Of a stretch of 64,000 nt of DNA, positions 37,960-44,584 are shown in pieces. This DNA is from Amycolatopsis cihanbeyliensis. Lineage in GTDB: Bacteria > Actinomycetota > Actinomycetes > Mycobacteriales > Pseudonocardiaceae. A program made the translations under genes and the position numbers. The notes under the pieces were generated by a model. That model did no database searches and was not told the DNA's origin. It saw only the letters and a program-made list of their open reading frames with translations. The stretch lies in contig NZ_VFML01000001.1 of assembly GCF_006715045.1 (NCBI RefSeq), positions 372,001-436,000 of the forward strand, written 5' to 3'. Every line of letters starts with the position of its first letter. Within the stretch, counting starts at the first letter, position 1.

Positions 37960-38265
37960 ATGGATCTCACCCCTCGTGAGCTCGACAAGCTCCACCTTTA
38001 CATGGTGGCGGAGCTGGCAAGGAAACGGCGCGGCCGTGGGGTGAAACTGAACTACAGTGAAGCCGTTGCCCTGATCAGTGAGGCCATCCTCGAGGGTGCC
38101 AGGGACGGCAAGACCGTCGCCGAGTGTATGGAGCTCGGCGGTCAGGTCCTGAACGGCGAGGATGTGCTGCCGGGCGTGCGTGACATGCTTCCGCTCATCC
38201 AGGTGGAAGCCGCCTTTGTGGACGGGACCAAGCTGGTGTCCTGCCACGACCCGGTAGGCGCCTGA
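37960..38265 (+). CDS. ureA: Urease gamma subunit UreA
   Basis: 101 residues, exactly family length. Sequence [20 protein letters not shown] and [20 protein letters not shown] is diagnostic. Part of the (alpha-beta-gamma)3 urease that hydrolyses urea to ammonia and carbamate in the cytosol. AAAGGAG lies ten bases upstream. Its TGA is immediately followed by the ATG of a CbiX-like gene with no spacing, so the two are translationally coupled, which is unusual because ureB normally follows. Confidence 0.98.
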
Positions 38266-39039
38266 ATGCCCGCCACCCTGCTGCTGACCGGCGGGCACGA
38301 AAGCGACAGCGGTCGCGCGCTGGCACCGCTGGCGCTCCCCGGCGGTACGGCGCATCGAGTGATACCTCCCGGTCGTCCCCTCCAGCGCGCGGCTTCCGAG
38401 GCACTGGAGGACGCTCCGCACACGGTGTGCGTGGTCCCGATGACATTGGGACGGGACCCGAAACTGGTCGCGGACACCGCACGGGCGCTGAACTGGCTGA
38501 CCCGAGGCGCCGGTCGGGGCCGGATCTGCCTGACCGCCCCCTTCGGCACCACGGATCACCTCATCGGGTGGCTACGCGCGGCGGCAAGGCACGCGGCCGG
38601 ACCGGCCCCCGACGTCGCGGTCCTGATCACGGCTCCGGTCGCCGGGCCGTTCGAAGACGCCGAGCTGTTCCGGGTCGCCCGGCTCGTGCGGCAGTACAGT
38701 GGGCATCGCTGGGTGGAGGTGGCCTTCGCGGGCGGTGATCCCGACCTTGCCGAGGGGGTGGACCGTTGCCACCGGCTCGGTGCGACCCGGGTGGCACTGG
38801 TCCCGGCCTCCTTCTGCCGTGCCACCGTGCGGGGGAGTGAAGGTGGCGGGCCACTGCTCACCGAGGCGGCGATCGCGGGGGTGCTGACCGCTCGCACCAC
38901 CGCGGCGACGCGGGCGCTGGCGTGCGGCGACGACGGCATCCTGGCCGGTCTCGATGCCGAGCACGGGCACGGGTACGCGCACTCGCACGGGCCCGGCGAC
39001 GAAAGGCATGTGCACGGCCATGTGCACAGTCACCGTTGA
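38266..39039 (+). CDS. CbiX/sirohydrochlorin-chelatase-like protein with His-rich tail, inside urease operon
   Basis: 257 residues. The N-terminus [20 protein letters not shown] aligns with the GHGSR metal-site strand of CbiX/SirB chelatases (H11), and [17 protein letters not shown] and [14 protein letters not shown] match the conserved VPxxL strands of the two half-domains. The last 25 residues hold nine histidines (H233 to H256, in [10 protein letters not shown] and HVHGHVHSH). Class II chelatases insert Ni, Co or Fe into tetrapyrroles. No tetrapyrrole genes are nearby; the gene lies between ureA and ureB in a cluster that has ureF, ureG, ureD and a nickel permease but no ureE. I infer a nickel-binding or nickel-delivery role, possibly replacing UreE. 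Start coupled to the ureA stop. Confidence 0.8.
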
Positions 39040-39052
39040 GAAAGGACAATCC

Positions 39053-39448
39053 ATGTCGGGCGGAGCCAGCTACCTCTACGGCGAGGAACCGATAGAAATC
39101 AACTCCGGCCGCCGGAAGACGCGCCTCACCGTGCGCAACACCGGCGACCGCGCGATCCAGATCGGTTCGCACTACCATTTCTTCGAGGCGAATCGCGCAC
39201 TGGATTTCGATCGTAACCAGGCCTACGGGATGCACCTGGACATTCCGGCGGGCACGGCCGTTCGTATCGAGCCGGGCGACACGCGCGAGGTGGAATTGAC
39301 CGCCTTCGCCGGTCATCAGCGCCTGGTCGGTTTCAGCAATCTGGTGGATGGTGGGATCGGGTCCGCCGACACCAGGGCCGCGGCGCTGGACCGAGCCGTG
39401 GCGCGAGGATTCAAGGGCGCTCACCGCGAAGCGGGAGATGAGCGCTGA
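39053..39448 (+). CDS. ureB: Urease beta subunit UreB
   Basis: 131 residues. Diagnostic sequence: [20 protein letters not shown], then [20 protein letters not shown] and [22 protein letters not shown] 39053 has AAAGGA ten bases upstream, 13 bp after the CbiX-like stop. The C-terminus ([13 protein letters not shown]) extends slightly beyond the family core. Its TGA overlaps the ureC ATG by one base. Confidence 0.97.
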
Positions 39449-41172
39449 TGGCATTCCTGGACCGTAAACAGTACACCGACCTGTTCGGCGCCACGGTCGG
39501 CGACCGGTTCCACCTTGCCGACACCAATCTCGTGGTGGAAGTCGAGCGGGATTTCAACGAGGGTCATTACGGCGACGAGGCCGTCTACGGCGGCGGCAAG
39601 GGCATCCGCGACGGTATGGCACAGGATCCGGCCGCGACCTCGGCCCATGGCGCGCTGGACATGGTGATCACCAACGTCGTGGTGCTCGATCCGGTCCTCG
39701 GCGTGCTGAAAGGCGATCTCGGCATCAAGGACGGCCTCATCGCCGGGCTCGGCAAGGCGGGCAACCCGCACACCCAGAGCGGGGTGGATCGGAGGCTGGT
39801 GCTCGGACCCGGCACCGAGGTGGTCTCCGGCGAGCACCTGATCGCCACCGCGGGCGGCATCGACACGCATATCCATTTCGTCTCACCGCAGCAGGTGGAG
39901 CACGCGCTGTCCAGCGGGATCACCACGTTGATCGGCGGCGGTGACGGTCCTTCCGACGGCACGAACGGCACCACCTGCACCCCCGGGCCGTGGAACATCG
40001 CCCGGATGTACCAGGCCGCGGAAGACCTGCCGGTGAACGTGGGCATGCTCGGCAAGGGCAACGGCTCCCTGCCCGAGGCGCTGGTCGAGCAGGTCGAGGC
40101 CGGGGTGTGCGGGCTGAAGGTGCACGAGGACTGGGGTGCCACACCGGCAGCCCTGCGCACCGCACTGGAGGTGGCCGACCGCTACGACGTCCAGGTCGCG
40201 GTGCACACCGACACGCTCAACGAGTCCGGCTTCTTCGAGGACACCCTGTCCGCGGTCGACGGCCGCACCATCCATACCTTCCACACCGAGGGCGCAGGTG
40301 GCGGGCACGCCCCCGACATCATGCGGGTCGCCGGTGAGCCGAACGTGCTGCCCTCCTCGACCAATCCGACGTTGCCCTACACCGTCAACTCCGTGGATGA
40401 GCTGCTCGACATGGTGATGGTCTGCCATCACCTCCGCCATGACATCCCCGAGGACGTCTCCTTCGCCGACTCCCGGGTGCGCGCGGAGACCGTCGCCGCG
40501 GAGACTGTGCTGCACGACGAGGGCGTCATCTCCATCTTCTCCTCCGACTCGCAGGCCATGGGCAGGGTCGGCGAGTCATGGATCCGGGCGTTCCAGACCG
40601 CGCATCATTGCAAGGACCAGCGGGGCAAGCTGCCCGGGGACTCGGCGCGCAACGACAACCACCGGGTGCTGCGCTACCTGGCCAAGATGACCATCAACCC
40701 GGCCGTCGCCAGCGGCACCGCCGACCACATCGGTTCGCTGGAGCCGGGAAAGCTGGCGGACGTCGTGCTCTGGCCGATCAACTCCTTCGCCGCGAAGCCG
40801 AAGATGGTGATCAAGGGCGGAATGATCAACTGGTCCAGGATGGGCGATCCGAACGGGTCCCTGCCCACCCCGCAACCGGTCTACTACCGTCCGATGTTCG
40901 GCTCCTACGGCAAGGCACGGCACGCGACCCGGGTGTCCTTCATGTCGCAGGCCGCGGTAGACCGGGGCGTACCGGCCGAACTCGGCCTGAGCAGTATCGT
41001 CCTCCCGGTCCGGCACTGCCGGTCGGTCGGCAAGCAGCACATGGTGCGCAACGACGCGACGCCACAGATCACGGTGGACCCGGAAAGCTACAAGGTGAGC
41101 ATCGACGGTCGCCCGGCCACGATCGAACCCGCCACGCAGCTTCCGCTCAACCACCTGTTCTTCCTGACATGA
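39448..41172 (+). CDS. ureC: Urease alpha (catalytic) subunit UreC
   Basis: 574 residues. The dinuclear nickel site is complete: HIH in [14 protein letters not shown], the Lys to be carbamylated in [10 protein letters not shown], the His of [18 protein letters not shown], and the flap [21 protein letters not shown] with catalytic His. [11 protein letters not shown] and the C-terminal LPLNHLFF are conserved. Nothing is missing, so an active enzyme is expected if nickel is delivered. Overlaps ureB by 1 bp and ureF by 4 bp. Confidence 0.98.
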
Positions 41173-41864
41173 GCACCAGCCCCGTCGGCGCGCTGCTGGT
41201 CAGCCTCCAGCTCACCGACTCGGCGTTCCCGAGCGGCTTCTACACGCTCTCGCACGGGCTGGAAGGCTATGTCCAGGACAGGGCGATCGAGCCGCACACC
41301 ATGCCGGTGCTGTTGCACGATCTGCTGCGGCATTCGATCGGCCCATCGGACGCCACCGCGCTCGCGCTGGCCCACCGGGCGGCACTGGCCGGGGACTGGG
41401 AGCGGGTGATCGGTGTCGATCGCAGGCTGCTGGCCACCAAGCTCAACCGGGAGATCAGGGTGGCCGCGCTCCGCACGGGGCATCAACTCCTGGAGACCGC
41501 GGGCGCGGCGCTCGGGAGCGTCGTGCTGGAGAAGTACGCGGAGCTCGTCGCGGCCAAACGAGCTCCGGGGCTGCAGGCGGTCGCCGCCGCGGTCACCTAT
41601 GCCGGGGCGGGGATACCGGCCGACCAGGCGGTAGCCAGTGACCTGTTCGCCTTCGCGGCGAGCTTCACCGGAGCCGCCCTGCGGCTGCGCCTGACCGATC
41701 ATCGCCACGCCCAGGTCGTGCTCCGCGCCGCCGCCCCGGTCATCGAGGAGGTGACCACCGCCGCGCTCACCCGCGGGCTCGCCGATCTCGGCGGCTGCAC
41801 CCCGATGGCCGACGCCATGTCCGGCCTGCACGAGCGGGCCGAGGCACGGCTGTTCACGAGCTGA
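41169..41864 (+). CDS. ureF: Urease accessory protein UreF
   Basis: 231 residues. [26 protein letters not shown] is the UreF N-terminal signature and the helical remainder matches in length. UreF with UreD and UreG forms the GTP-dependent complex that loads carbamylated lysine and nickel into apo-urease. Starts inside the ureC stop (ATGA). Confidence 0.95.
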
Positions 41865-41885: not shown

Positions 41886-42506
41886 ATGAAGGACAACGTG
41901 CTACAGGTCGGCATCGGCGGCCCGGTGGGGTCGGGTAAGACGGCCCTCATCGAAGCACTGGTGCCGGTACTGGTGGACCGCGGGCACCGGCCCGCGGTGA
42001 TCACCAACGACATCTACACCCAGGAGGACGCGCACCACGTCCGCCGGACCCTGGACGGGATTCTGGCGCCGGAACGCGTGGTCGGCGTGGAAACCGGGGC
42101 GTGCCCGCATACCGCGGTCCGGGACGACCCCACGATGAATCTCGCCGCGGGCGCGGAAATGCTCGAGACCTTTCCCGATGTCGACACCCTGCTGTTCGAG
42201 TCCGGCGGTGACAACCTGACGTTGACCTTCAGTCCGGTGCTGGTCGACCTGTTCCTGTTCGTGCTGGACACCGCCGAGGGCGAGAAGATGCCGCGCAAAC
42301 GCGGCCCCGGCATCACCGAAGCGGAGCTACTGGTGATCAACAAGATCGATATCGCCCGGTATGTCCGCGCCGACCTCGCCGTCATGGAGTCCGACGCCAA
42401 GCGGGTCCGGGACGGGCGGCCTGTGGTGCTCACCAACTGCCTGACCGGCAATGGTCTCGACGAGATCGCGGACTTCCTGGAAACCTACCGCGACGCAGGG
42501 GAGTGA
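41886..42506 (+). CDS. ureG: Urease accessory GTPase UreG
   Basis: 206 residues. P-loop GIGGPVGSGKTALIEAL, switch region NDIYTQEDAHHVRR, the nickel CPH motif in ETGACPHTAVRDD, and NKIDIA for guanine. GTP hydrolysis drives nickel transfer. Note that the N-terminus begins MKDNVLQVGIG without a His-rich leader, so no metal-storing extension is present on UreG. GAGGAA ribosome site. Confidence 0.97.
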   Translation: MKDNVLQVGIGGPVGSGKTALIEALVPVLVDRGHRPAVITNDIYTQEDAHHVRRTLDGILAPERVVGVETGACPHTAVRDDPTMNLAAGAEMLETFPDVDTLLFESGGDNLTLTFSPVLVDLFLFVLDTAEGEKMPRKRGPGITEAELLVINKIDIARYVRADLAVMESDAKRVRDGRPVVLTNCLTGNGLDEIADFLETYRDAGE

Positions 42507-42512
42507 ACGGCG

Positions 42513-43442
42513 GTGTCCGCACGGTTGTCTCCCCGGCACTACCAGCCGTCCAGGGTGCCACCCGAGGTGGCTCGGCACGCCGCAGGGCCGGACACACTCG
42601 GTGTCGGCAGGCCCGGCAAGGTCGGGCTGCTGGAGCTCGGGTTCGAGAAGGCAGGGGAGCGGACCGAACTGGTGACCCGATACCAGAAGTCACCGCTGCA
42701 GATCATGCGGCCGCTGTACATCGACCCCGCGCGGCCGGACCTGCCGATCACGTACCTGATGTCCACCGGCGGCGGCATCGTCCAGGCCGACCGGCTACGC
42801 CTCGACGTCACCTGCGGGGAGGACACCGCCGTGCACCTCACCACGCAAGCCGCCACCAAGATCTACCGGATGGAGTACGACTACGCCACCCAGCTGGTGA
42901 ACCTGCACGCCGGGCCCGGTGCCTACCTCGAGTACCTCCCCGATCCGGCAATCCCGCACGCCGGAGCGCGCCTCTACCAGCGCACGGTGATCACCGCCGA
43001 CCCGTCGGCCACGGTGCTCACGGGCGAAACCGTGCTGGCAGGCAGGCTCGCCCGCGGCGAGCGGCACGCCTACCAGGTGTTCGCAGGCGACCTCGAGGTA
43101 CAGCGCCCCGGCGGGGAGCCGGTGATACTGGACACGGTGCGCCTGGAGCCGGCCGGTCCGGGTGTGACCGGGCCCGGGGTACTGGCCGGGTACGACATCG
43201 TGTCCACTCTGTTCGTGGCCACCCCGCTGGCGCCGGCGCACGCCGTCGCGGACTCCTTGCACCACGCGCTGGCTGCCAGCGGCCTGCGTTACGGCGCGAG
43301 CGTGCTGCCCGGTGAGTGCGGTGCCTGGCTGCGGGCGCTCGGCAGCGATCCGCCTTCGATGAGCAGGGCGGTACGCGTCGCATGGGACGCGGTCCGGCGG
43401 CTGCTCATCGGCGTGCCGGCCCCAGCGCTGCGAAAGTCGTGA
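42513..43442 (+). CDS. ureD: Urease accessory protein UreD (UreH)
   Basis: 309 residues from GTG 42513. Family features: LITYLMSTGGGIVQADRLRL (here DLPITYLMSTGGGIVQADRL), THLTTQAATKIYRMEYDYAT-like strand, and GGYLEYLPDPAIPHAGARLY-type segment. UreD provides the nickel tunnel to UreC. It starts 6 bp after ureG. It ends where the nickel permease leader begins. Confidence 0.92.
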   Translation: MSARLSPRHYQPSRVPPEVARHAAGPDTLGVGRPGKVGLLELGFEKAGERTELVTRYQKSPLQIMRPLYIDPARPDLPITYLMSTGGGIVQADRLRLDVTCGEDTAVHLTTQAATKIYRMEYDYATQLVNLHAGPGAYLEYLPDPAIPHAGARLYQRTVITADPSATVLTGETVLAGRLARGERHAYQVFAGDLEVQRPGGEPVILDTVRLEPAGPGVTGPGVLAGYDIVSTLFVATPLAPAHAVADSLHHALAASGLRYGASVLPGECGAWLRALGSDPPSMSRAVRVAWDAVRRLLIGVPAPALRKS

Positions 43443-43465
43443 CAGGCGTCTCGAAAGGAATAACC

Positions 43466-44584
43466 GTGGTCGAGGAAACCTCCGCCACAACGGGAAAGCT
43501 GGCACGAATCCGGCGCGGTTTGACGCCAGGGGAATGGCGCCGGCTGCTCGGCATGGCCGGTTTCATCGTGCTGTTGCACGCCGTGGGGTGGTTCACCCTC
43601 GTCGTGCTCGTCGCGCCGCAGCACTATTCCGCGGGTAGTGCCGTTTTCGGTATCGGCATCGGCGTGACCGCGTACACCCTCGGCATGCGGCACGCATTCG
43701 ACGCCGACCACATCGCCGCCATCGACAACACCACCCGCAAACTCCTTGCCGAAGGCGGACGTCGACCGCTCTCGGTGGGATTCTGGTTCTCGCTCGGACA
43801 CTCCACGGTGGTGTTCGGCCTGTGCCTGCTGATCTCTCTGGGGGTCAAGGCGCTGACCGGCCAGGTACAGGACGAGACCTCCGTGCTGCAGTCCTCCGCG
43901 GGACTCATCGGCACCCTGGTCTCCGGCTGTTTCCTTCTCCTCATCGCCGCGCTCAACATCGTTGTGCTGGCCGGGGTGCTGAAGGTGTTCCGGCGGATGC
44001 GTCGTGGCGGCTACGACGAGACGGAATTGGAACGCCAACTGACCAAGCGCGGCCTGGTCAACCGCTTCCTCGGCCGGGTCACCAGGACCGTCCGCAAGCC
44101 CGTGCACATGTACCCGGTCGGCTTTCTGTTCGGGCTCGGCTTCGATACCGCCACCGAGGTCTCCCTGCTGGTACTGGCCGGTGGCGCCGCGGCGGTCGAC
44201 CTGCCGTGGTTCGCCGTTCTCACCCTGCCGGTGCTGTTCGCGGCCGGTATGTGCCTGCTCGACGCCATCGACGGCGTCTTCATGAACTTTGCCTACACCT
44301 GGGCATTTTCCAAACCGGTCCGGAAGGTCTACTACAATATCACCATCACCGGTCTCTCCATCGCGGTAGCCGTGCTCATCGGGGGTATCGAACTGATCTC
44401 GCCGCTTGCCGAGAAACTGCACTGGACCACCGGTGTGATCGGCTGGATCGGGAGACTCGACATCGGTGATGTCGGGTTCACCGTCGTCGGTCTTTTCGCC
44501 GTCGTCTGGGCAGTAGCCCTGCTTATCTGGCGATTCGGGAAGATTGAGCAAAAATGGTCCGGAGAACGGTCACCGACACATTAA
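43466..44584 (+). CDS. NiCoT-family high-affinity nickel/cobalt permease
   Basis: 372 residues from GTG 43466 (GAAAGGA upstream; GTG 43439 overlapping the ureD stop is an alternative). Eight hydrophobic helices. The signature RHAFDADHIAAIDNTTRKLL (H-x4-D-H in helix 2) is exact, with LGFDTATEVSLL and GMCLLDAIDGVFMNFAY. These are HoxN/NixA-type nickel permeases. As last gene of the cluster it supplies nickel for urease. Confidence 0.95.
   Translation: MVEETSATTGKLARIRRGLTPGEWRRLLGMAGFIVLLHAVGWFTLVVLVAPQHYSAGSAVFGIGIGVTAYTLGMRHAFDADHIAAIDNTTRKLLAEGGRRPLSVGFWFSLGHSTVVFGLCLLISLGVKALTGQVQDETSVLQSSAGLIGTLVSGCFLLLIAALNIVVLAGVLKVFRRMRRGGYDETELERQLTKRGLVNRFLGRVTRTVRKPVHMYPVGFLFGLGFDTATEVSLLVLAGGAAAVDLPWFAVLTLPVLFAAGMCLLDAIDGVFMNFAYTWAFSKPVRKVYYNITITGLSIAVAVLIGGIELISPLAEKLHWTTGVIGWIGRLDIGDVGFTVVGLFAVVWAVALLIWRFGKIEQKWSGERSPTH

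Follow-up and report, generated by a model that had tools for sequence, protein, structure and literature searches.

A histidine-tailed chelatase-fold protein encoded between ureA and ureB as a likely nickel helper for urease in one actinobacterial operon lineage

The window analysed here, a stretch of 64,000 nucleotides from the genome of Amycolatopsis cihanbeyliensis, contains a urease operon in which a gene for a chelatase-like protein with a histidine-rich tail, here called X, is placed between the genes for two structural subunits, and this raises the question of what such a protein does for urease. X (38266..39039, + strand, an open reading frame of 257 amino acids) begins with an ATG directly 3' of the TGA of ureA (38263-38265), as the initial annotation had described, and ureB starts at 39053 in the ORF list of the window. 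The neighbouring genes, all on the + strand, were assigned by Pfam and NCBIfam profiles as ureA, urease gamma (37960..38265; PF00547, NF009712), ureB, urease beta (39053..39448; PF00699, NF009682), ureC, urease alpha (39448..41172; PF00449 and TIGR01792, above cut-off), ureF (41169..41864; PF01730, no NCBIfam match), ureG (41886..42506; TIGR00101), ureD (42513..43442; PF01774, no NCBIfam match), and an open frame holding a NicT nickel permease (43316..44584; NF052500 with 549.5 bits, PF03824), which confirms the downstream gene order that had been read from the sequence. The NicT profile match begins at residue 72 of its frame, the true start being internal. Upstream of ureA, a urea transporter (PF03253; 36874-37919) is split across two reading frames, profile positions 4-164 lying in one and 188-289 in the other, as by a frameshift or a sequencing error. 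Promoter-like elements and tandem repeats were not detected (0 of each), and terminator-like elements numbered 4 versus 3.8 in shuffled sequences.

The absence of ureE from the cluster, as initially annotated, extends to the whole 7.4-Mb genome (two contigs, a single urease alpha subunit), in which UreE_N has no match. The UreG of the window starts with MKDNV-LQVGIGGPVGSGKT, an N-terminus that is not rich in histidine. HypB was considered as a hidden chaperone in this genome and rejected, nothing scoring over the cut-off; two weak matches correspond to the UreG of the window and to one second place.

A Pfam scan of X gave CbiX alone, matching residues 132-181 only (29.4 bits against a cut-off of 22), and no UreE_N domain. 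No significant solved relative was found by sequence, the best match having an E-value of 0.12 and the CbiX structure 3lyh one of 0.23, and therefore the structure of X was modelled. The predicted structure (pLDDT 91.9) has the two-domain, two-lobed fold of class II chelatases and a disordered tail. Conserved positions of the folded domain are G10, H11 and E12, G62 and R63, and D131 and A132. The single retained chelatase-type histidine, H11 (codon 38296..38298), is histidine in 58 of 61 aligned relatives, and two of the three non-matching sequences, L068 and L070, have gaps there that perhaps result from the choice of start codon. Residue 66, a lysine (codon 38461..38463), takes the place of the second catalytic histidine of CbiX in ungapped alignments with CbiX-L and with 3lyh, itself a weak match, and among the 61 X sequences this position is R in 18, E in 14, G in 10, K in 7 and other residues in the remainder. 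The catalytic pair of Archaeoglobus fulgidus CbiX-S is His10/His74, located in one domain (PMC7689651); in X the pair typical of CbiX/SirB is incomplete, its partner position 66 not being histidine. The CbiX-type metal strand claimed for this protein is thus present in part: GGH with H11 stands, and the second chelatase histidine is missing. The MxCxxC Fe-S motif of CbiX-L is absent from all 64 X ORFs, whereas 18 of 20 actinobacterial CbiX-type ORFs with GHGT contain it.

The tail (residues 232-257; 38959..39036, + strand; pLDDT 57-68) opens with a conserved EHGHGxAHSHG, and the count of nine histidines within the last 25 residues was correct, the first 230 residues holding seven. The histidines at the tail start are kept in most of the 61 aligned sequences (H233 in 51, H235 in 56, H239 in 55 and H241 in 56), while beyond this start the tail varies in length and order among relatives. 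Homologues of X number 506 proteins at E<=1e-3, and the best 120 of these 506 matches bear the source names sirohydrochlorin chelatase or cobalamin biosynthesis protein CbiX. The relatives of X are more than a product of chance and form a real and conserved family, which is probably misnamed. No description of X in urease operons was found in the open-licence PMC literature searched.

A scan of GTDB contigs yielded 64 X loci, 56 of which are linked to urease genes. The order ureA-X-ureB was found in 52 of these 56, and in the other four the contig ends after X. Apart from these stands L047, with the order X-ureF-G-D and no ureABC in the flank examined. In 55 of the 56 urease-linked copies, the most histidine-rich stretch of 45 residues near the C-terminus contains 7-19 histidines, the sole exception being L066, which is masked; L068 has a short tail behind a retained core sequence. 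Seven copies have no urease gene in the flank (L034, L035, L039, L041, L049 and L057 from Catenulispora, and L067 from Embleya), lack the tail, and have 1-4 histidines in the corresponding 45 residues. The idea that these paralogs point to a different route for nickel was rejected, as no metal link was seen among the neighbours sampled: ten proteins at six of the seven loci (all but L057) include trehalose-phosphate synthase or trehalase-type proteins, exporters, an acyl-CoA thioester hydrolase-type protein, an antiporter subunit and a DUF protein. A trehalose-6-phosphate synthase-type neighbour was seen at L035, L039 and L049. Linkage to NiCoT permeases was likewise rejected as a trait of the family, since nicT matches lie within the flanks of 2 of the 64 loci (L020 and L030), on the opposite strand.

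Across an even class sample of 296 genomes, X was found at E below 1e-80 in two (G000 and G123), and 46 further genomes gave weaker matches (E 1.5e-12 or worse); among 28 such weaker-match loci that were read, 20 were GHGT-bearing CbiX-type ORFs. The X regions of G123 and of the Streptomyces griseoviridis record L037 are one and the same. In the family of G123 (249 genomes), X occurs in 50 genomes and an X-type UreG in 53. The X-type UreG rows of this family number 58: X is nearby on the same contig in 50 and missing in five, and contig ends break the remaining three.

The absence of ureE was rejected as evidence on its own, being the norm in the class sample: UreE scored over the cut-off in 5 of 107 UreG-bearing genomes, in a survey that scored 20 top first-look candidates from each genome and may have missed a few, and nearly all of the other 102 lack X as well. 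Of 49 X genomes searched for UreE, 45 gave no match. The other four do have a UreE outside the X operon, which the initial annotation had named as a refuting observation, and in each of them it lies in a second urease operon, which is diverged and gave no match to X. The C-termini of UreE contain 3-13 histidines in the last 35 residues in eight of nine cases and none in one; the UreE of Dietzia (L104) has 13.

Stronger evidence than the missing UreE is its joint absence with a His-rich UreG. With UreG start codons set by one automatic rule, which misjudges at least L175, an N-terminus with at least two histidines was found in 0 of 55 X operons, 0 of 9 UreE operons and 88 of 108 operons with neither; the 55 comprise 54 distinct operons (L037 and L196 are one genome), four more X loci end before ureG, and the 108 derive from 109 class-sample rows, one being incomplete. 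X and a His-rich UreG therefore never share an operon in this set, and with no UreE and a plain UreG, X operons lack both known nickel-binding elements. By the same start rule, 20 of the 108 have neither X, UreE nor a His-rich UreG, which indicates that operons can do without a His-rich element; 16 of these 20 fall in one UreC clade. A short, His-poor UreG N-terminus without X or UreE was seen in L193, L200-L202, L204-L209, L211-L212 and L214-L218. In Haas et al. 2009 (PMC2770081), genomes with ureG and without ureE are reported to encode a UreG with a histidine stretch in all but two organisms, for which the authors could only suggest HypB.

The history of these operons was read from a UreC tree of 121 rows, including 25 X operons, built by a quick method with midpoint root and SH-aLRT support. 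The X operons form one clade (99) and group with three UreE operons of Rhodococcus/Prescottella (98), to which they are sister; the other UreE operons lie nearer the root, one on a very long branch. Operons with a His-rich UreG fall in another clade (99), together with rows lacking all three elements. The simplest reading is a single replacement of UreE by X. Because the UreC of the window falls beside X operons of Streptomyces and Catenulispora, and because the only class-sample genome of the same family, G249 (L194), carries an operon of the His-rich UreG type, horizontal gain of the urease operon of the window is likely.

X is missing from five operons of its lineage (L225, L226, L227, L228 and L230), and three of them (L225, L228 and L230) have a His-rich UreG, with N-termini such as MHDPTQVRGSRHHHDHDDEF. 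Compared with 0 of 55 X operons, this gives p 0.0003 in a Fisher test, a value that overstates independence: the tree of the X clade has three changes of X, one of them accompanied by a change in UreG histidines, and the three-of-five figure accordingly represents one event. The clade of the three has a support of 83, with L230 on a long branch, and a test of independent pairs yielded three pairs, too few to inform. In L226 and L227 the UreG of the operon is plain. L226 (genome G396, whose single UreG is plain and which lacks UreE) retains a remnant of the C-terminal part of X, ALHLLGHGEDGI, before ureB (L226:4690-4850), and since this remnant persists between ureA and ureB, the loss of X is probably recent. 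In G409, the genome of L227, a second UreG elsewhere has three histidines and is weakly His-rich; this assembly is rated 10% contaminated. These two operons, with neither X nor an internal substitute, speak against X being strictly required, and X can thus be lost. UreE, too, can be dispensable at ample nickel.

What X does can be weighed against the systems it resembles. It shares the two-domain fold and the N-terminal GH motif with CbiX-L, SirB and CbiK, and a His-rich C-terminus with CbiX-L; such tails are also present on ordinary CbiX-L, a point against a nickel role of X in urease maturation, and 18 actinobacterial CbiX-L proteins (L074-L098) have GHGT, MxCxxC and 10-17 histidines in the last 45 residues. 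That X is a working sirohydrochlorin chelatase for Ni, Co or Fe, placed in the urease operon on account of a shared use of nickel or cobalt, would agree with this fold, with H11 and with the database names. However, the second catalytic histidine is replaced, MxCxxC is lacking, the position between ureA and ureB is fixed, and the genome encodes two other CbiX/SirB-type proteins (C2:577475 and C1:5084536) with Pfam scores far above that of X, which makes this the least probable of the readings considered, and a very improbable one. The location between two structural genes could instead point to an assembly or scaffold factor for UreA-UreB-UreC with a secondary tail, as could the core kept in L068; but urease-less paralogs have no tail, in one clade the operons without X carry a His-rich UreG, and the UreG of X operons has no histidine stretch of its own, and we regard such a role as unlikely.

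Hpn-type proteins are His-rich nickel stores, and a store or buffer of this kind, without direct hand-over to UreG, deserves more weight. A tail of variable length and order behind a conserved start, modelled with the low confidence typical of disordered stretches, would suit it, but a store would seem to require less conservation than the folded domain shows, and it has no need to stay between ureA and ureB. This alternative is possible, though doubtful.

The most likely reading of the sequence comparisons is that X is a nickel chaperone or buffer that replaced UreE. X would belong to the class II chelatase (CbiX/SirB) superfamily as a member without catalytic activity, having assumed the handling of nickel during urease maturation in one actinobacterial operon lineage, and its tail would bind nickel and serve UreG, as a chaperone or as a local buffer. 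We assign this explanation a probability of about 0.7; both the loss of catalysis and the binding of nickel by the tail with hand-over to UreG are inferred. The initial proposal of a chelatase fold recruited for nickel in this way is the best-supported reading, because X operons lack UreE and a His-rich UreG and stand beside UreE operons on the UreC tree; the missing ureE, on which it had leaned, is not enough. The contrasts behind the explanation rest on few events and one X clade, and the same evidence fits direct hand-over and a local store, which cannot be told apart here.

Like UreE, X has a His-rich C-terminus and is encoded in the urease operon, but it lacks the UreE domain and occupies a different place in the operon. 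The fold of UreE also differs from the chelatase fold of X. The His-rich N-terminus of UreG in organisms without ureE, as described in PMC2770081, fills the same gap as X, which differs in being a separate protein beside a UreG that stays plain. X would be a variant in an already known functional slot, the nickel supply of urease, and new there as a chelatase-fold protein. We lean, by a modest degree, towards the more specific view that X represents a third type of nickel metallochaperone for urease, a former chelatase that replaced UreE in one lineage and is functionally interchangeable with the histidine N-terminus of UreG.

The function of X in urease maturation is strongly suggested by these sequence-based data, and the X family offers, for one lineage, a testable answer to how organisms manage that have ureG but neither ureE nor a UreG with a histidine stretch. 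If this explanation is true, the chelatase fold would have been reused as a metallochaperone, and the names sirohydrochlorin chelatase and CbiX would be misleading for this family.
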